Below are positions 2,799-14,773 of a DNA stretch of 64,000 nucleotides, in pieces. A program made the position numbers and the translations under genes. Source of the stretch: Thiorhodovibrio winogradskyi (GTDB taxonomy: Bacteria; Pseudomonadota; Gammaproteobacteria; Chromatiales; Chromatiaceae); NCBI RefSeq assembly GCF_036208045.1, contig NZ_CP121472.1:3669531-3733530 (forward strand). The letters are read 5' to 3'. The notes under the pieces are model-generated. The model worked only from the letters and a program-made list of their open reading frames with translations, had not been told where the DNA came from and did no database searches. The first letter of the stretch is position 1. Every line of letters starts with the position of its first letter.

Positions 2799-3575
2799 CT
2801 AAAGCTCATAATCAATCAACCGCGCCTCGCGTTGCAGGGTCTCATCGCCGCATTCGTTGGCCCAGACCTTGAGCAAGCCGCGCAGGGCGGGATTGTCGAG
2901 CTGGCCGTGGGCACTGAGATAATTGCGCGCGGCGACGATGCCGCCGTCGCGATAGAGCAGAATCAGACCGCAGAGCCGATCCCAAAGCGTTTGGGGGTTG
3001 TCGAGACGGACGCGAGCGCGTTCTTCGGGTTTGAGCAAGCGCAGCCGATTGCCGCGAATGGCCAGGGGCGCGGCGCGTTCGCTGTCACTGGCGCTGGCGT
3101 AGGCAACCAGGGCGTCGCTGACGCGATAGTTGCCATTGCGCTGTTGCAGGTGAAAATTGAGCGAGCGGCTCATCTGCAAGGCGTCGTCGAAGGCAAAGTC
3201 ACCCAGCCCGTTGATGCCGAGCGCAATCACCGCCAGGCGCGATTCGGCATCGAGATCCTCGACGGTAACCAGGCCGCCGGACAGGCGGCTGACTTCCTCT
3301 TCCGCCACCACCCGGGCCGCCTCGCGCATCGCACGGGTGGGCGGCACCAGCTCGTCGCCATCCCGCACCGGCCAGTGTTGGGAATAGACCCGCGGCGCCC
3401 GACCCCAGCAGGCGATCATGCGATCCACCGGATTGAGCTTGAGGCGCGCGAACTCGGCCAGCCCATCGCGCACGGCGGTTTCCAGCCGGGCGCGCACCTC
3501 GTAGGCCCAGCTTGAAGGTTGGCGCTCGGCGCGTTCGGCGCACGCGGTGGGGTAACAGGCCAGCGAGATCTTCAA
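2799..3575 (-). pseudogene. DUF1156 DNA methylase, C-terminal fragment
   Basis: The frame holds 258 codons from a TTG at 3575; an in-frame TAG lies five codons upstream. WPVRDGDELVPPTRAMREAARVVAEEEVSRL, VEDLDAESRLAVIALGINGLGDF, ALQMSRSLN and PQTLWDRLCGLILLYRDGG are the conserved tail of DUF1156 adenine-methylase-like proteins, whose full length is about 900 residues or more. The catalytic methylase part is absent. The matching N terminus of a DUF1156 gene lies at 6060-6209 on the same strand, with a restriction-modification cassette between them. Confidence 0.72.
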
Positions 3576-3662
3576 GACAGTTCTTCTCTATTGAATGCGG
3601 ATGTCGACCATGAACATGCGACAGGCTATCCTAGGCGCTTGCACGTGACGGCCGAATTTAAC

Positions 3663-4178
3663 ATGTCGGGACTCAGGCAGCGATCAATCCATCGACCGCG
3701 CCGACCGAAAACCACGGTTTTGGACGAGGATTTCACGGACACGCTGACCCCATCCGAACGCAGTGAACGCATGTCGAGAATCCGCGGCAAGGATTCCACG
3801 GCGGAACTGCGCCTGCGACGCATGATCCACGGCATGGGTTACAGGTACCGTTTGCATGTCAAGGACTTGCCAGGCACGCCGGATCTGGTGTTCCGTTCTC
3901 GCAAGGCCGTGATTTTCATGCACGGTTGTTTCTGGCATCGTCACCACGGCTGCGCCCTGGCGCGCCTGCCCAAATCGAAACGCGCGTTTTGGGAGGAGAA
4001 GCTCAATTCCAACAAGGAACGGGACAACAGGAACCAACAGCGGCTAGTCGATATGGGATGGAAGGTCATGGTCATTTGGGAATGTGAAATGCAGCAAAAA
4101 GACTTGGCCGGACTTGCCAAGCGGATCAAGCACTTCCTGATCGGCAATGACGGAGAAAATCGCGATGAAATCCGTTGA
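3663..4178 (+). CDS. vsr: Very short patch repair endonuclease (Vsr)
   Basis: This 171-residue protein nicks DNA at T:G mismatches that arise when 5-methylcytosine deaminates. SERSERMSRIRGKDSTAELRLRR, YRYRLHVKDLPGTPDLVF (holding the catalytic aspartate in PDLVF) and AVIFMHGCFWHRHHGC (zinc and metal-binding Cys/His) are the standard Vsr motifs. WEEKLNSNKERDNRNQQRL and MVIWECE complete the fold. The ATG at 3663 is chosen because the family starts shortly before TPSERSERM; the open frame extends upstream. It overlaps the cytosine methylase by 14 bp, as expected of a protector for that methylase. Confidence 0.93.
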   Translation: MSGLRQRSIHRPRRPKTTVLDEDFTDTLTPSERSERMSRIRGKDSTAELRLRRMIHGMGYRYRLHVKDLPGTPDLVFRSRKAVIFMHGCFWHRHHGCALARLPKSKRAFWEEKLNSNKERDNRNQQRLVDMGWKVMVIWECEMQQKDLAGLAKRIKHFLIGNDGENRDEIR

Positions 4179-5382
4179 ACTCTTTGCCGGTGCCGGTGGA
4201 CTGGCGATGGGGGTCGGCTTTGCTGGCTTCGACTCGCTCGGCGTCTTCGAGCGGGATCCCTGGGCGTGCAAGACGGTGAGGCAGAACCAGCAAAGAGGCT
4301 ACGCCCCAGTGGCGGATTGGCCCCTGTTCGAGGGCGATGTGCGGGACTTCGACTGGTCGTCCATGGTCGAACAAGTCGATCTTCTGGCCGGCGGACCACC
4401 CTGTCAGCCGTTTTCCATGGGAGGTAAACATCGCGCGGATAATGATCCGCGCGACATGTTCCCCATCACGGCGGATATCGTCCGCGTATTGCGCCCACGT
4501 TCCTTTCTCATCGAAAACGTCAAGGGTCTCACGCGTTCGAGCTTCGCCAACTACTTTCAGTATATCCTGCTGCAACTGGAATTCCCCCAGGTCGCGCGCA
4601 AGGCACGGGAGAACTGGACTGAGCATCTGCAACGGCTCCAAGCCAAGAAAACTTCCAACGCGCGGGGCACCACGGACCTAACCTATCACCTGCTACCGAC
4701 CTTGGTGAATGCCGCCGACCATGGCGTGCCGCAATGCCGTGAACGGGTCTTCATCGTGGGTTTTCGCTCCGATCTCGATGTTGACTGGTCATTTCCAAGA
4801 GCCACGCACAGTCTGGACGCCTTGCTCTATTCCCAATGGGTGAGCGGGGAGTACTGGGAACGGCATCGCATCACCAAGCAACGCCGCCCGCCATTGCCCG
4901 CGAAATTCGCCAAACGGATTCGCCAACTGTCCGGGGGCTTCGCGCTTTTCAATGAAGCGCCCTGGCGAACCGTCCGCGATGCGCTCGTTGATCTGCCCGA
5001 CCCCACGCAACCGCTGGGAATGCACGGATTCCACAATCATGTTTTTCAGGACGGCGCCAAAGCCTACCCAGGTCATACCGGAAGCCCGGTGGACTTACCG
5101 GCGAAGACGCTCAAGGCCGGAGATCACGGCGTCCCCGGCGGGGAAAACATGATGCGCCTTTCAAACGGCGCTGTGCGCTATTTCACTGTGCGCGAATCCG
5201 CGCGCTTGCAGACCTTTCCCGATGGGTATGTCTTCCATGGATCCTGGACGGAAACCATGCGCCAGTTGGGAAACGCTGTGCCCGTCGCGCTCGCGCGTCG
5301 CGTGGCGGCATCGGTCGCCATGCACCTGGCACTGTGCGACGAGCGCGGGCTGCTGAATCAACGCGCCAGGAAGCGGGCATGA
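4165..5382 (+). CDS. DNA (cytosine-5) methyltransferase
   Basis: This 405-residue protein transfers methyl from S-adenosylmethionine to C5 of cytosine. MKSVELFAGAGGLAMG is motif I, GGPPCQPFSMGG is motif IV with the catalytic cysteine near residue 79, and LIENVKGL is motif VI. QCRERVFIVGF is motif VIII, and RESARLQTFPD with QLGNAVPVALA are motifs IX and X. I chose ATG 4165 because GGAG lies 8-9 nt upstream; an in-frame ATG at 4147 lacks one. It overlaps vsr upstream and the Eco29kI-type endonuclease downstream (ATGA), so the three genes are one operon. By association the target is probably CCGCGG. Confidence 0.93.
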   Translation: MKSVELFAGAGGLAMGVGFAGFDSLGVFERDPWACKTVRQNQQRGYAPVADWPLFEGDVRDFDWSSMVEQVDLLAGGPPCQPFSMGGKHRADNDPRDMFPITADIVRVLRPRSFLIENVKGLTRSSFANYFQYILLQLEFPQVARKARENWTEHLQRLQAKKTSNARGTTDLTYHLLPTLVNAADHGVPQCRERVFIVGFRSDLDVDWSFPRATHSLDALLYSQWVSGEYWERHRITKQRRPPLPAKFAKRIRQLSGGFALFNEAPWRTVRDALVDLPDPTQPLGMHGFHNHVFQDGAKAYPGHTGSPVDLPAKTLKAGDHGVPGGENMMRLSNGAVRYFTVRESARLQTFPDGYVFHGSWTETMRQLGNAVPVALARRVAASVAMHLALCDERGLLNQRARKRA

Positions 5383-6023
5383 ACGACAACAATGTCATCC
5401 CCTTCAATCCGCTGCATAAGCGCCATCTGGGCGAAAGTGTCGGTCAGGCGCTGCTGCGCCGACCGCCGACCGCGATGGCGGATCTCACCAGCTTCTCGGG
5501 CGCGGGAGTTTACGCAATCTATTACCAGGGTGAATTTCCCGCCTACGAAGCGATTGCATCCATGAACCGCCAACGGGGTTGCCTCGTCCCAATTTATGTT
5601 GGCAAGGCCGTGCCCAAGGGCGCGAGAAAAGGCGGCGACCTAGAGGCAAATCCGGGGAAAGCGCTCTTCAATCGCCTCACGCAACACCGGCGTAGTATCG
5701 AGGAGGCCACGAATCTCAACCTTGCCGATTTCCACTGTCGCTTTCTTGTCGTCGACGATATCTGGATCCCTTTGGGCGAATCCTTGTTGATCGCTAAATT
5801 CAACCCGTTGTGGAATCTTCTCATCGACGGGTTCGGCAACCACGACCCAGGCTCCGGTCGGCATGCGGGTGTTCGACCAAGATGGGATGTGCTACATCCA
5901 GGACGTGCGTGGGCGCAAAAATGCCGACCACGAGAAGAAAGCGCTGAACAAATCGTGGCGGACGTAAAGCAATACCTACGAGACAACCCGCCAACAGATG
6001 ATGCCGAATTGATCACGCCCTAG
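5379..6023 (+). CDS. Eco29kI-type restriction endonuclease (GIY-YIG)
   Basis: This 214-residue protein starts at the ATG overlapping the methylase stop (ATGA). GAGVYAIYYQGEFPAYEAI carries the GIY-YIG variant. LVPIYVGKAVPKGARKGG supplies the lysine and arginine of the active site. LTQHRRSIEEATNLNLADF, DDIWIPLGESLLI and LWNLLIDGFGNHDPG..GR..G (with the general acid glutamate and asparagine) follow, then WDVLHPGRAWA. All match R.Eco29kI, a type IIP enzyme that cuts CCGCGG. The CCGCGG specificity is transferred from the family, not read from this sequence. Confidence 0.88.
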   Translation: MNDNNVIPFNPLHKRHLGESVGQALLRRPPTAMADLTSFSGAGVYAIYYQGEFPAYEAIASMNRQRGCLVPIYVGKAVPKGARKGGDLEANPGKALFNRLTQHRRSIEEATNLNLADFHCRFLVVDDIWIPLGESLLIAKFNPLWNLLIDGFGNHDPGSGRHAGVRPRWDVLHPGRAWAQKCRPREESAEQIVADVKQYLRDNPPTDDAELITP

Positions 6024-6059
6024 AGCCATCCGGATAGACCAGTGATTGCATCATCCGAC

Positions 6060-6209
6060 GCCGCTTGCCGTCAGCGGGCGGCGCGCCCACTAGGCGTGCA
6101 GACGGTGCATCGGCGGCGCTAAGCCGGTATTTCGCTCGCGCCGGGTCTCGGCGCCCACCTGATGACAGGGAAAGCCGGCTTCGATCAGGCGGGTGTCCTT
6201 GGAATCCAT
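6060..6209 (-). pseudogene. DUF1156 DNA methylase, N-terminal fragment
   Basis: From an ATG at 6209 the minus strand reads MDSKDTRLIEAGFPCHQVGAETRRER, then LAPPMHRLHA, a TAG stop, and WARRPLTASG. DUF1156 proteins begin with RLIE..FP...VG.E..RE and LH.WWARRPL.ASR, so the TAG sits exactly at the first tryptophan of WWARRPL (TGG to TAG). Similarity stops after TAS, about 35 bp before the Eco29kI-type gene ends. Together with 2799-3575 these are two ends of a methylase gene on one strand, separated by the vsr-methylase-endonuclease cassette. Confidence 0.75.
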
Positions 6210-6214
6210 GGGTG

Positions 6215-6610
6215 TCAATCCTGTTCCTTGTTTATGTGATCAGGGTCAAGCTCAAAGGCTTCTTGATCCGGCAAGCCTTTCAATTGATCGAGCAGCGCTG
6301 GAATATCGTCCTGAATGATGCTCCAAACGGTGTCATCATCGATACCCAGATAGCCATGAATGATCCGGTTGCGTGTGGCAATCATCATGCGCCAGGGAAT
6401 CTCCGGATAAGCATTGCGCACAGCGTCCGGTAACTGACTGGCTGCTTCGCCGATGAGTTCGAGATTGCGCAAGGTCGCGTCATAGGTGATTCCGCTGTCA
6501 ATAAAATGCTCTTGATTAAGTCCACCGGTATATCTGAGAACACGATGACAGAAGTCAATGATGTCATCAATATAGAGACGCCAATCACGCCGCGGCGTTT
6601 GCTTTGACAT
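6215..6610 (-). CDS. HepT-like HEPN ribonuclease toxin (DUF86)
   Basis: This 131-residue protein is a DUF86/HepT protein. It has WRLYIDDIIDFCHRVLRYTGG, then TYDATLRNLELIGEAA, and the HEPN active-site motif R-x4-H in MIATRNRIIHGYLGIDDDTVW. In HepT-MntA systems the HEPN protein is an RNase toxin that is blocked when the partner nucleotidyltransferase adds AMP near the conserved tyrosine three residues after the histidine; HGY is present here. It overlaps the mntA-like gene by 26 bp. The pair lies between the DUF1156 and DUF499 remnants. Confidence 0.9.
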   Translation of the reverse strand: MSKQTPRRDWRLYIDDIIDFCHRVLRYTGGLNQEHFIDSGITYDATLRNLELIGEAASQLPDAVRNAYPEIPWRMMIATRNRIIHGYLGIDDDTVWSIIQDDIPALLDQLKGLPDQEAFELDPDHINKEQD

Positions 6611-6893
6611 AGATCATTTCTTTTTCAATAAAGGGTTTTAATTCCGCGCGCAGGGCTTTATCGGTGACCAGATCAATGGGGCACCCGAGCAGATCTTCCA
6701 GATAAAACAGGACGCCAAAATAACGCGCTGATGTCGCCGGGCCATCGAAGCAGGCGAGAATATCAATATCGCTGTCGGGCCGTGCCTGATCGCGCGCCAT
6801 GGAGCCGAACAGCGCCAGCGATGCAATACCGAAGCGGTTGGCCAGGTGCGGCAAATGAGCGCTTAGTTGACTGAGGGTTTCGGCGCGGCTCAT
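6585..6893 (-). CDS. MntA-like nucleotidyltransferase antitoxin
   Basis: This protein has 102 residues if it starts at the ATG at 6893 (MSRAETLSQLSAHL), which is where the MNT fold begins. ATGs at 6950 and 7097 are in frame but overlap the upstream gene. SLALFGSMARDQARPDSDIDILACF is the minimal nucleotidyltransferase signature GS-x-R and SD-x-D. FYLEDLLGCPIDLV and the C-terminal FIEKEMIYVKANA follow. It should AMPylate and neutralise the overlapping HepT-like toxin. Confidence 0.88.
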   Translation of the reverse strand: MSRAETLSQLSAHLPHLANRFGIASLALFGSMARDQARPDSDIDILACFDGPATSARYFGVLFYLEDLLGCPIDLVTDKALRAELKPFIEKEMIYVKANAAA

Positions 6894-6936
6894 TCGCGAC
6901 CGGGGTTGCTGTGCGCTCCTGTGGTGTGTGATACCT

Positions 6937-7122
6937 TCACTCAGATTCATTTCTGGCTTCAAGAATGCTGTTTTTAATCCCTGGAATGCCGCGAATATCG
7001 GTGTCATCATCAATGTATTCACTTTGCTCCAAAATCTGAACTTTATTTGGTGAAAAATGTTCAAGCAGCCAGGTAAATTGATCGCTGATACGATCATCGA
7101 TTTTTAATGTCAAGGTTTTCAT
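6937..7122 (-). CDS. Small antitoxin-like protein
   Basis: This 61-residue acidic protein, MKTLTLKIDDRISDQFTWLL..F, has a central EYIDDDTDIRGIPGI and ends SILEARNESE. It resembles a widespread group of short antitoxin-like proteins that begin M..LTL.IDD.....F..LL.HF and carry a D/E-rich turn before a final helix. No RelE or ParE toxin is next to it. Its end overlaps the upstream frame of the MntA-like gene, so it may be transcribed with that pair. Confidence 0.5.
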   Translation of the reverse strand: MKTLTLKIDDRISDQFTWLLEHFSPNKVQILEQSEYIDDDTDIRGIPGIKNSILEARNESE

Positions 7123-7145: not shown

Positions 7146-7384
7146 GCCTATCCCCGCGCCCTTAGCCGCTCCAGCACTGCTGCAGCGCGCTTGTCGCCAG
7201 ACTCACCACAGAGCATCAGGCGCAGACCGCTGACCGCCCAACTGCGCAGAGCCTAGTCGGCGCTGCTGACATTGGACAACCAGTAAACGGCTTCCTCGCG
7301 CGAGAGCATGGCCACGCGCCGGCCAACCAGTTCGATGCGATCAACATCGCGCACCTTGGCTTGCAAGCGGAAAAACAGCGCGAG
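7146..7384 (-). pseudogene. Decayed C-terminal remnant of a defence-island protein
   Basis: In a frame shifted by one from the DUF499 fragment, the minus strand reads LALFFRLQAKVRDVDRIEL, VGRRVAMLSREEAVYWLSNV, a TAG stop at about 7254, then WAVSGLRLMLCGESGDKRAAAVLERL. This looks like genuine protein with a YWL core and basic C-terminal helices, of the kind found at the end of proteins in DUF499-type islands. I cannot name the family with confidence. It is joined directly to the DUF499 N terminus, so a deletion has removed everything between. Confidence 0.45.
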
Positions 7385-7922
7385 GCGCGACCTGCGCATC
7401 GGTGTCGAAAAACAGCTTGCCGACCAGCGTCAGCGTCTCCGCTGTGGTGGCGCGCTCGGTGGTGATCAGCTCGCCCTCGTCCGAGAGCTGCTTGATGATG
7501 GTGCTTTCCAGATGCAATCCACCGGAGCCGCCGCCGGTCGGGCCGGCGTTCTTGCCGACGATGCCGTCGAGATAGGGAGCGACATCCTGTCCCTGCTTGG
7601 CGGCATGGGTGACGGCGATCAGGGTGTGGGTCTTGCCGCCGCCGAAAGCTTCATCGAGACGCTGCATTCCCGGTCGCGCGGCATCGTTCCGCACCAGGCG
7701 CGCCAGCACATTGTCGAGAATGTCGCGCAGCCCCTGGGTGGGATAGGTGGCATCGCGAAAAAAGGCGACCGGATCGGAATACAGGGACGCGGCGCCTTCG
7801 CGTGCCTCACCGCGCGCATAGTCGCCGAGTACCCGACTGAGGCTCGCGGTAAAAATTTCCGGGTTGAAGGTGCCGGCGAGGATCTCCGGCCGGGGTTGGC
7901 AGCTTGAGCGCACCTCTTGCAT
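7341..7922 (-). pseudogene. DUF499 ATPase, N-terminal fragment
   Basis: The family start is the ATG at 7922 (MQEVRSSCQPRPEILAGTF), preceded by CGAGG. TFNPEIFTASLSRVL, DPVAFFRDATYPTQGLRDIL and RLDEAFGGGKTHTLIAVTH, the Walker A motif at residues 94-98, are hallmarks of DUF499. Full-length members have about 1,000 residues. Here similarity ends after TLVGKLFFDTDAQV, where the frame slips into the remnant at 7146-7384. DUF499 ATPases commonly head DISARM-like operons with DUF1156 methylases and helicases, and remnants of both types occur to the left. Confidence 0.75.
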
Positions 7923-11209: not shown

Positions 11210-12073
11210 ATGATTCCCCGTCACGCGCAAGAGACAGCCCTGCGACTCGCGCGCGGTTTCCCCATTCTGGTGGTGACCGGACCGCGGCAATCTGGCAAAA
11301 CCACCCTGGCACGCGCCCTTTTCCCTGATCGGGACTATGTGACCCTGGAGGATCCAGAACAGCGCGAGTTCGCAACGACTGATCCGCGGCGTTTCCTGGC
11401 GCGATTTCGTTCAGGCGCGGTTATCGACGAGGTCCAGCGGGCGCCTGACTTGCTGTCCTACCTACAGGGCATCGTGGATGAGCGCCGCGTGATCTCGCAC
11501 AGCACCGCGAGCGAATGGCTGTCGGTGCTGGAGGCAAGCTATCTGGTGGTCCGCCTGCCGCCCTACCATGTCAATTTCGGTAAACGACTGGTCAAGAGCC
11601 CAAAACTCTACTTTCTCGACACCGGCTTGGCCGCGGCCCTGTTGGGCATCGGTGACGCCGACGGTCTGTCCATCCATGCCCAGCGCGGCGCCCTGTTCGA
11701 GACCTGGGTGGTCTCGGAAGTGATGAAACAGCGCTGCAATGCGGGGCAACCTCATGGGTTGTTTTTCTGGCGCGACAACACGGGCAACGCAGTCGATCTG
11801 CTGTTCAAGAACGCCGGCCAACTCCATACCGTGGAAATAAAATCCGGCGCGACCTTCACCCGCGACTGGCTCAAGGCCCCGAAACGCTGGCGGCAACTCG
11901 CCGGCGATCAGGCCGCCCAACCGCTGCTGATCCATGGCGGCGAGCACGGCTACGAGCGCGAAGACATCAAGATACTTCCCTGGCGGTCCGTCGGTGAGCT
12001 TCTTCCTATTCGAACCCATTGGCGACCAAAGGAACGGCATGACGGGTGCTTGAGCGACGAAAAAGACCCTTGA
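11210..12073 (+). pseudogene. DUF4143 AAA ATPase with internal in-frame deletion
   Basis: The 287 codons are open, whereas the family has about 380-420. The Walker A GPRQSGKTT is at residues 24-32 and the Walker B GAVIDEVQRAPDLLSYLQ at about 70-86. The frame then jumps near residue 92 from GIVDER to ISHSTASEWLSVLEASYLV, and continues with the DUF4143 part (KRLVKSPKLYFLDTGLAAALLG, ETWVVSE, TVEIKSGAT). Missing are the sensor region (usually LTGS) and the arginine-rich middle. ATP hydrolysis is unlikely. It could be translated as a shortened protein. Confidence 0.72.
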
Positions 12074-12936: not shown

Positions 12937-13233
12937 GTGCCAATCGTGAGCGACCTGAACCCACTCCGCCAGCTCTGCCAGCAACTCGCGCGTGCCCAGT
13001 CCGAAGCGGCGGCCTTGGGACTCTTTGTCGACGACCGCGAGCTGCTCGATTGCCCCAAGTGCAAGCTCTTCGAGGATGTCACGGCTGGCGGACTGCTCAT
13101 GACCTCCCGCAAGCTCGCCACTCCAGCCATCGACACCGGCTTGCGGTTTCGCCAGGTTTCTTCCACGACATTCCAATGCCCGGCCTGCGCCGAGATCATC
13201 AACATCCAAGAAGACGTCCATGGCGAAGACTAA
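12937..13233 (+). CDS. Small zinc-ribbon protein at head of type I RM operon
   Basis: This 98-residue protein starts at a GTG (12937); a second GTG at 12946 is equally possible. LLDCPKCKLFEDVTAGG and STTFQCPACAEIINI form two CPxC knuckles of a zinc ribbon. The N terminus is helical with many glutamines and alanines. I do not recognise a named family. It overlaps hsdM by 14 bp and is probably translated with it. Confidence 0.6.
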   Translation: MPIVSDLNPLRQLCQQLARAQSEAAALGLFVDDRELLDCPKCKLFEDVTAGGLLMTSRKLATPAIDTGLRFRQVSSTTFQCPACAEIINIQEDVHGED

Positions 13234-14773
13234 GCCCGAAAAATCCAAATCCCTCGAATCCTGGATCTGGAACGCCGCCTGCTCCATCCGCGGGGCCAAG
13301 GACGCACCCAAGTACAAGGACTACATCCTGCCGCTGATCTTCACCAAGCGCCTCTGCGACGTCTTCGACGATGAGCTAAACCGCATCGCCGCCGAGGTCG
13401 GCTCACGCAAGAAAGCCTTCGCGCTCGCCAAGGCCGACCACAAGCTGGTGCGCTTCTACCTGCCGCTGGCGCCGGATGATCCCGAGCAACCCGTCTGGTC
13501 GGTCATCCGCAAGCTCGCGGACAGAATCGGCGAAGGCGTCACCACCCAGATGCGCGCCATCGCGCGCGAAAACCCGCTGCTGCGGGGCATCATCGACCGC
13601 GTCGACTTCAACGCCACCACCCACGGCCAGCGCGACCTCGACGACGACCGCCTGTCCAATCTCATTGAAGCGATCAGCACCAAGCGTCTGGGCCTGGACG
13701 ATGTCGAGGCCGACATCATCGGTAAGAGCTACGAATACCTCATCCGCAAGTTCGCCGAGGGCGGCGGCCAGAGCGCCGGCGAGTTCTACACCCCGCCCGA
13801 GGTCGGGACTATCATGTCGCGTGTGCTCCAGCCCGAGCCGGGCATGGAAATATACGACCCCTGCTGCGGCTCCGGCGGTCTGCTGATCAAATGCGAGATC
13901 GCGATGGAAGAGGCGGCGCAGACCGAGCAACCCGCCCCGCTCAAGCTCTATGGCCAGGAATACACCGCCGACACCTGGGCCATGGCCAACATGAACCTGA
14001 TCATCCACGACTTCGAGGGCGAGATCGAGATCGGCGATACCTTCAAGAACCCCAAATTCCGCCGACACGGCCGGCTGCGCACCTTCGACCGCGTCGTCGC
14101 CAATCCGATGTGGAACCAGAACTGGTTCACCGAGGCCGACTACGACAACGACGAGCTCGACCGCTTTCCCGCTGGCGCCGGTTTTCCCGGCAAATCCTCC
14201 GCAGACTGGGGCTGGGTGCAGCACATGCACGCCAGCCTCAACGACACAGGCCGTGCAGCCGTGGTCCTCGACACCGGCGCCGCCTCGCGCGGCTCGGGCA
14301 ATGCCGGCGCCAACAAGGAAAAGACCGTCCGCCAGTGGTTCGTCGACCACGACCTGATCGAAAGCGTCCTCTACCTGCCCGAGAACCTCTTCTACAACAC
14401 CACCGCGCCCGGCATCGTGTTGTTCCTGAACAAGGCCAAGCCCGCGCCGCGCCAGGACAAGGTCTTCCTCGTCAACGCCAGCCAGGTCTTCGAAAAGGGC
14501 GACCCCAAGAACTTCATCCCCGAGGCAGGCATCGCGCGCATCGCCGACACCCTCATTGGCTGGAAGGAAGCGGACAAGCTCAGCCGCATCGTCGATCTCG
14601 CCGAGTTGAAGAAGAACGACTACAACATCTCCCCCAGCCGCTACATCCACACCAGCGACGCCGAAACCTATCGGCCGCTGGCGGAAATCGTCGCCGACCT
14701 GGACGCGGTTGAGGCCGAGGCGCGGGAGGCCGATGCGGCGCTGCGTGAAATCCTGCGGAAGATCGGAGTATGA
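13220..14773 (+). CDS. hsdM: Type I restriction-modification methylase subunit HsdM
   Basis: This 517-residue protein forms the N6-adenine methylase with HsdS. The N-terminal domain (SLESWIWNAACSIRG, YKDYILPLIFTKRLCDVF) is normal. GEFYTPPEVGTIMSRVL precedes motif I MEIYDPCCGSGGLL. The catalytic motif IV reads VVANPMWNQNW instead of the usual NPPF/Y. The C-terminal end has YNISPSRYI and then an acidic coiled coil. It overlaps the zinc-ribbon gene upstream and the DUF1016 fragment downstream (ATGA). Confidence 0.93.
   Translation: MAKTKPEKSKSLESWIWNAACSIRGAKDAPKYKDYILPLIFTKRLCDVFDDELNRIAAEVGSRKKAFALAKADHKLVRFYLPLAPDDPEQPVWSVIRKLADRIGEGVTTQMRAIARENPLLRGIIDRVDFNATTHGQRDLDDDRLSNLIEAISTKRLGLDDVEADIIGKSYEYLIRKFAEGGGQSAGEFYTPPEVGTIMSRVLQPEPGMEIYDPCCGSGGLLIKCEIAMEEAAQTEQPAPLKLYGQEYTADTWAMANMNLIIHDFEGEIEIGDTFKNPKFRRHGRLRTFDRVVANPMWNQNWFTEADYDNDELDRFPAGAGFPGKSSADWGWVQHMHASLNDTGRAAVVLDTGAASRGSGNAGANKEKTVRQWFVDHDLIESVLYLPENLFYNTTAPGIVLFLNKAKPAPRQDKVFLVNASQVFEKGDPKNFIPEAGIARIADTLIGWKEADKLSRIVDLAELKKNDYNISPSRYIHTSDAETYRPLAEIVADLDAVEAEAREADAALREILRKIGV

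Follow-up and report, generated by a model that had tools for sequence, protein, structure and literature searches.

A Vsr-methylase-endonuclease trio of the Eco29kI family within the split DUF1156 methylase gene of a remnant Hma/BREX-related operon

In Thiorhodovibrio winogradskyi, non-homologous recombination has quite probably placed a type II restriction-modification (R-M) trio of the Eco29kI family inside a DUF1156 methylase gene, which belongs to a decaying Hma or BREX-related operon. The window, i.e., the whole stretch of 64,000 nucleotides analysed here, belongs to a genome consisting of a single contig of 5.48 Mb; the comparison set includes 210 genomes of its order. The cassette is intact, the DUF1156 gene is split, and the operon around it is colinear with an intact counterpart and multiply deleted. 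The ends of the insert carry no repeats, and the cassette most likely has an origin separate from that of the copy in a genus mate.

The cassette and its relatives

The three genes of the cassette lie on the plus strand. The first (positions 3663-4178) encodes a Vsr-type T:G mismatch endonuclease of 171 residues (Pfam PF03852, 1.2e-27; PADLOC Vsr, 3.7e-32). It is followed by the gene of a C5-cytosine DNA methyltransferase at 4147-5382 (Pfam PF00145, 2e-53), the product of which contains all of the motifs FAGAGG, PPCQPFS, ENV, QCRER and GNAV. Because relatives begin there, ATG 4165 is probably the methylase start, which would give an overlap of 14 nt with the end of vsr; the homologue in the genus mate G001 begins with MKSVELFAG. 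The third gene (5382-6023) encodes an Eco29kI-family GIY-YIG type II restriction endonuclease of ~213 residues, matched by Pfam PF09517 (2.5e-70; score 236 bits, cut-off 30.8) and by PDB entries 3mx4 and 3nic (E ~1e-43). The genes overlap or abut one another and, therefore, probably form one operon.

The active site of R.Eco29kI is formed by residues Y49, Y76, R104, H108, E142 and N154 (PMC1952068). Alignment places Y44, Y72, R98, H102, E133 and N145 of the window endonuclease at the corresponding positions, so that all six are kept. At near-invariant columns, Vsr shows no deviation (39 columns), nor does the endonuclease, and the methylase deviates at 2 of 158. Since both the active-site residues and the near-invariant columns are retained, the cassette looks functional, as far as its sequence can tell. 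Decay of the cassette, at which a long branch in the tree had hinted, was considered and ruled out, with deviations at just 2 of the 276 near-invariant columns. The GC content is 58% in the insert and 66% in the adjoining piece of DUF1156.

The cassette thus has the endonuclease family, the six active-site residues and the adjacent m5C methylase in common with Eco29kI. It differs in the gene order, which is vsr, methylase, endonuclease (vsr-M-R), and in the added Vsr; its specificity is assigned by analogy only, and the endonuclease is just ~46% identical to the Eco29kI type carried by small plasmids of E. coli and Salmonella.

Related cassettes are common, as the search proposed in the earlier note bore out. 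Across 84,980 species genomes, 274 related stretches were detected, the best 80 of which were compared together with order-wide matches, giving 96 loci that include the window itself and six duplicates. The vsr-M-R order was found at 46 of these 96 loci, or at 43 of 89 distinct loci once the window and the duplicates are set aside. M-R alone was present at 28 of the 96, some of them cut by contig ends, and M-R with vsr on the opposite strand at 10; a few loci have other orders. The vsr-M-R order is spread over several phyla. The trio is also carried by the temperate Burkholderia phage Milagro and by a Paraburkholderia plasmid. A Halomonas phage has the M-R pair, as does a Halomonas plasmid of 6.1 kb. 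Among 94 crudely chosen flanking ORFs, no integrase or transposase family stands out as recurring beside the cassettes. The window's cassette is the only one of the Eco29kI type found inside an operon of this kind.

A tree built from methylase and endonuclease together places the window with sequences from Chloroflexota, Rhodocyclales and Hydrogenedentota (SH-aLRT 98). The cassette of G001 belongs to another supported clade, with Thiogranum and Porticoccaceae, and occupies an unrelated locus. The window and G001 cassettes were most likely acquired separately. The end branch of the window cassette is long (0.46), and the donor lineage is therefore unsampled.

The split DUF1156 gene and the ends of the insert

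The intact 1064-residue DUF1156 protein of the family-mate genome G092, an HmaB-like N6 methylase, served as the reference for the host gene, and both junctions could be mapped with it. The 5' piece of the DUF1156 pseudogene occupies 6059-6209 on the minus strand (79.6% identity to G092, E 4e-19), and the 3' piece, still an open frame, 2802-3575 on the same strand (81.6%, E 1e-124). At the protein level, residues 1-49 correspond to window positions 6209-6063 and residues ~812-1064 to 3569-2802. Thus, the cassette, which is oriented opposite to the flanking pieces, has non-overlapping parts of one DUF1156 gene on its two sides. The earlier note's description of a compact plus-strand Vsr-M-R operon flanked by the ends of DUF1156 is therefore accurate; the overlap or difference in subfamily that would have spoken against it is absent, both ends being ~80% identical to one and the same protein. 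The homologues in G019 and G479, to which the 3' piece is 75% and 77% identical, give the same split. The 5' piece has a TAG at codon 40, which is Trp40 in G092. Relaxed selection on the 3' piece was considered and not accepted: its amino-acid changes relative to G092 are in excess at a merely suggestive level (codon test, p 0.24; codon-position test, p 0.06), and the intact helicase shows a comparable excess (p 0.008 and 0.36, respectively).

Relative to G092, residues 50-811 are gone, i.e., ~762 residues or ~2.3 kb. The earlier note had put the loss at about 600 residues and had dated it to the insertion. That a segment is missing is correct; its size is larger, and its timing is not established, given that deletions free of any insert occur elsewhere in the operon.

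In ungapped comparison, DNA homology to the DUF1156 gene of G092 stops at ~6059 on the right and at ~3570-3575 on the left. The foreign stretch accordingly runs from ~3576 to 6058, with the left junction at ~3570-3580 and the right one at ~6058. A gapped alignment that stretched the left homology to 3637 was not credited, as it needed many gaps. Outside its genes the insert consists of a non-coding leader of ~87 nt (3576-3662), without counterpart in the compared Eco29kI loci, and a short trailer of ~35 nt (6024-6058). When 3576-3725 and 6024-6058 were compared with the fetched Eco29kI loci, there were zero matches, and conserved cassette ends are thus absent from them.

The absence of an integrase, a transposase and terminal repeats, claimed in the earlier note, holds. 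No phage, integrase, transposase or plasmid gene lies between the junctions. The search for short repeats that the note had called for gave nothing above chance: the longest direct or inverted repeat common to both ends is 7 nt, a length reached by ~54% of shuffles. No target duplication accompanies the insert, and the DUF1156 pieces do not overlap. The insert, therefore, has neither the terminal inverted repeats nor the target duplication of a transposon-like R-M unit.

The host operon and its surroundings

The Hma system, to which the host operon corresponds, has recently been reinterpreted as DUF499-centred BREX-related (BR) systems (PMC12839542). The intact relatives of the host operon share the DUF499 ATPase, the DUF1156 methylase and the PLD(HKD)/SNF2 helicase with the Type-2 set of these systems (PMC12839542), from which the host operon differs in having DUF7680 in place of DUF3780 and, in addition, an MNT/HepT pair and Uma2. 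The intact operon of G092 (locus L137) reads DUF499 - DUF7680 - MNT/HepT - DUF1156 - Uma2 - PLD/SNF2 helicase, and the minus strand of the window is colinear with it from DUF499 to the helicase.

Most of the operon is damaged. The remnant of the HmaC-like DUF499 ATPase (7386-7922, minus strand; found with the proteins of G092 and G019 as tblastn queries) joins residues 1-122 to residues 734-787, and PADLOC HmaC matches it at 8e-16, compared with 7e-61 for the intact homologue. DUF7680 is represented by its C-terminal residues 130-209 (7151-7390, minus strand; 76% identity to G092; PF24728 in the intact homologue), interrupted by one in-frame TAG. The toxin-antitoxin-like MNT/HepT pair lies just 5' of DUF1156 (6218-7097, minus strand; Pfam HepT-like 1e-27, NTP_transf_2 4e-14). 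At the operon end, positions 1-478 of the minus strand encode the N-terminal part of the PLD/SNF2 helicase, an intact protein of 1281 residues that continues to the left of the window (67% identity to G092 over 1273 residues; PADLOC PLD_Helicase 1e-54, HmaA 2.5e-47). Uma2 and the helicase are the only operon genes that are still whole.

Two of the deletions in the operon, of ~1.3 and ~1.9 kb, contain no insert. DUF499 has lost residues ~123-733 (~610 residues), and a further loss runs from residue ~788 of DUF499 to residue ~129 of DUF7680. Nonsense codons are present in two operon fragments, the 5' piece of DUF1156 and the DUF7680 remnant, and are unconnected with any insert. The core trio of the Hma or DUF499-centred BR systems is thus recognizable in the DUF499 and DUF1156 remnants and the intact helicase, and a complete translatable set of core genes is lacking. 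Because DUF499, DUF7680 and DUF1156 are truncated and two of the fragments contain stops, the host operon is a remnant and no working member of these systems. Truncated or rearranged DUF1156 genes also occur in the family members G089, G094, G140, G144 and G180. Together with the insert-free deletions in the window, these cases indicate that this type of operon decays through large deletions. It follows that the loss within DUF1156 need not date from the arrival of the cassette.

The MNT/HepT pair is 31-38% identical to that of G092 (L137, 8304-8953), far below the ~70-80% of the neighbouring genes, which suggests that the pair may have been swapped. In the related loci L139, L140 and L141, repeated DUF1156 tails are accompanied by several full or partial copies of Uma2, and the Uma2/DUF1156 end of the operon seems to have been duplicated repeatedly.

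Several observations concern the surroundings. A toxin-antitoxin-like UPF0175 and DUF3368 pair (1147-2029) has a copy of the Uma2 5' end on either side (980-1096 and 2049-2165; 85% identical over 118 aligned bases), one truncated and the other leading into the intact Uma2 gene; the pattern would be that of an insertion with a long target duplication. A DUF4143/AAA_14 ATPase gene (11210-12073) encodes just 287 residues, with an internal stretch seemingly gone, possibly through another in-frame deletion near the locus. A complete-looking HsdM-type N6 methylase of a type I R-M system (13220-14773) lies 7 kb from the cassette, and the area may therefore be a larger defence island. In the genus mates G001 and G002, a relic of 97 bases that resembles the beginning of DUF499 (L117, 7365-7461; L118, 6893-6989) adjoins a Uma2 gene, with pgi-like and leuA-like genes on either side; it may be all that is left of such an operon there.

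Order of events and relation to known R-M insertions

The course of events would be as follows. A self-contained type II R-M trio would have been acquired horizontally and lodged in the DUF1156 gene through non-homologous recombination, and the host would now be a pseudo-operon that sheds pieces via large deletions. By the biochemistry inferred for its members, the methylase would mark a cytosine of the recognized sequence (presumably CCGCGG, as for Eco29kI), the endonuclease would cut DNA lacking the mark, and Vsr would begin the repair of T:G mismatches left by deaminated methylated cytosines. Defence and post-segregational killing would keep the cassette in place. The whole window contains 45 CCGCGG sites compared with 65 +/- 8 in dinucleotide shuffles; this mild under-representation is compatible with exposure to an enzyme of that specificity and is an indirect hint.

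The order of these steps is inferred, and we lean towards entry of the cassette into a gene that had lost its use beforehand or was to lose it later, the adjoining 2.3 kb having been removed through ordinary deletion. The earlier note had favoured replacement by recombination or non-homologous repair after cleavage, which is possible and not established. In a one-step replacement, the cassette would have come on a DNA end, and a single event of illegitimate recombination or repair would have both inserted it and removed the middle of DUF1156. The loss does border the insert at either end, homology being clean as far as ~6059 and ~3570; the lack of repeats and of a target duplication is what end joining predicts; and rearrangements frequently accompany the insertion of R-M systems (PMC3874152). 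However, deletion was ongoing in this operon anyway, as the ~1.3- and ~1.9-kb losses without inserts attest, and the fresh junctions are found in no relative. Such a single event is the less likely reading. Because two further large deletions and two nonsense codons arose without inserts, decay by deletion, independent of the insertion and either earlier or later than it, accounts for the loss no less well. None of the genomes compared showed an intermediate state, such as the cassette within a DUF1156 gene that is complete apart from it or a deleted gene that lacks the cassette, and the genus mates G001 and G002 offer no orthologous empty site, the C-terminal piece of DUF1156 being absent from them and the flanking genes elsewhere. 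Direct displacement, in which the arriving cassette removed the resident BREX-related methylase in one replacement and the remaining genes of the operon decayed afterwards, is unlikely.

The two remaining alternatives concern the origin of the arrangement itself. Systems of the Eco29kI family ride phages and plasmids, so a larger element, prophage or island, could have brought the cassette and later been deleted down to a trio that is kept because its loss kills the cell; no phage, integrase or plasmid gene is left between the junctions, where the non-coding flanks are only ~87 and ~35 nt long, and we regard this origin as rather improbable. A chance flanking of the cassette by two separate DUF1156 remnants from tandem operon copies is brought to mind by the repeated DUF1156 tails of L139, L140 and L141. 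Nevertheless, the order in the window (DUF499-DUF7680-MNT/HepT-DUF1156 N-DUF1156 C-Uma2-helicase) is exactly that of G092, and both pieces match a single G092 protein equally closely, at ~80%, which makes this reading very improbable indeed.

Insertion of R-M systems that have no mobility genes into genomes, operons and other R-M systems is already published (PMC3874152, PMC2630997, PMC10273834), and the window is an ordinary, well-mapped further case. As in the insertions of Helicobacter pylori and Campylobacter upsaliensis (PMC2630997, PMC10273834, PMC3874152), a type II unit without mobility genes of its own is found inside another genetic unit. Unlike them, the window shows no target duplication, and the target, a BR/Hma methylase gene, has lost 2.3 kb. 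A truncated host gene, it should be noted, is no proof that the insert did the cutting. With an intact operon as reference, the window shows an R-M trio that lies within the methylase gene of a BREX-related system, and it offers one more well-mapped instance of the turnover for which defence islands are known.
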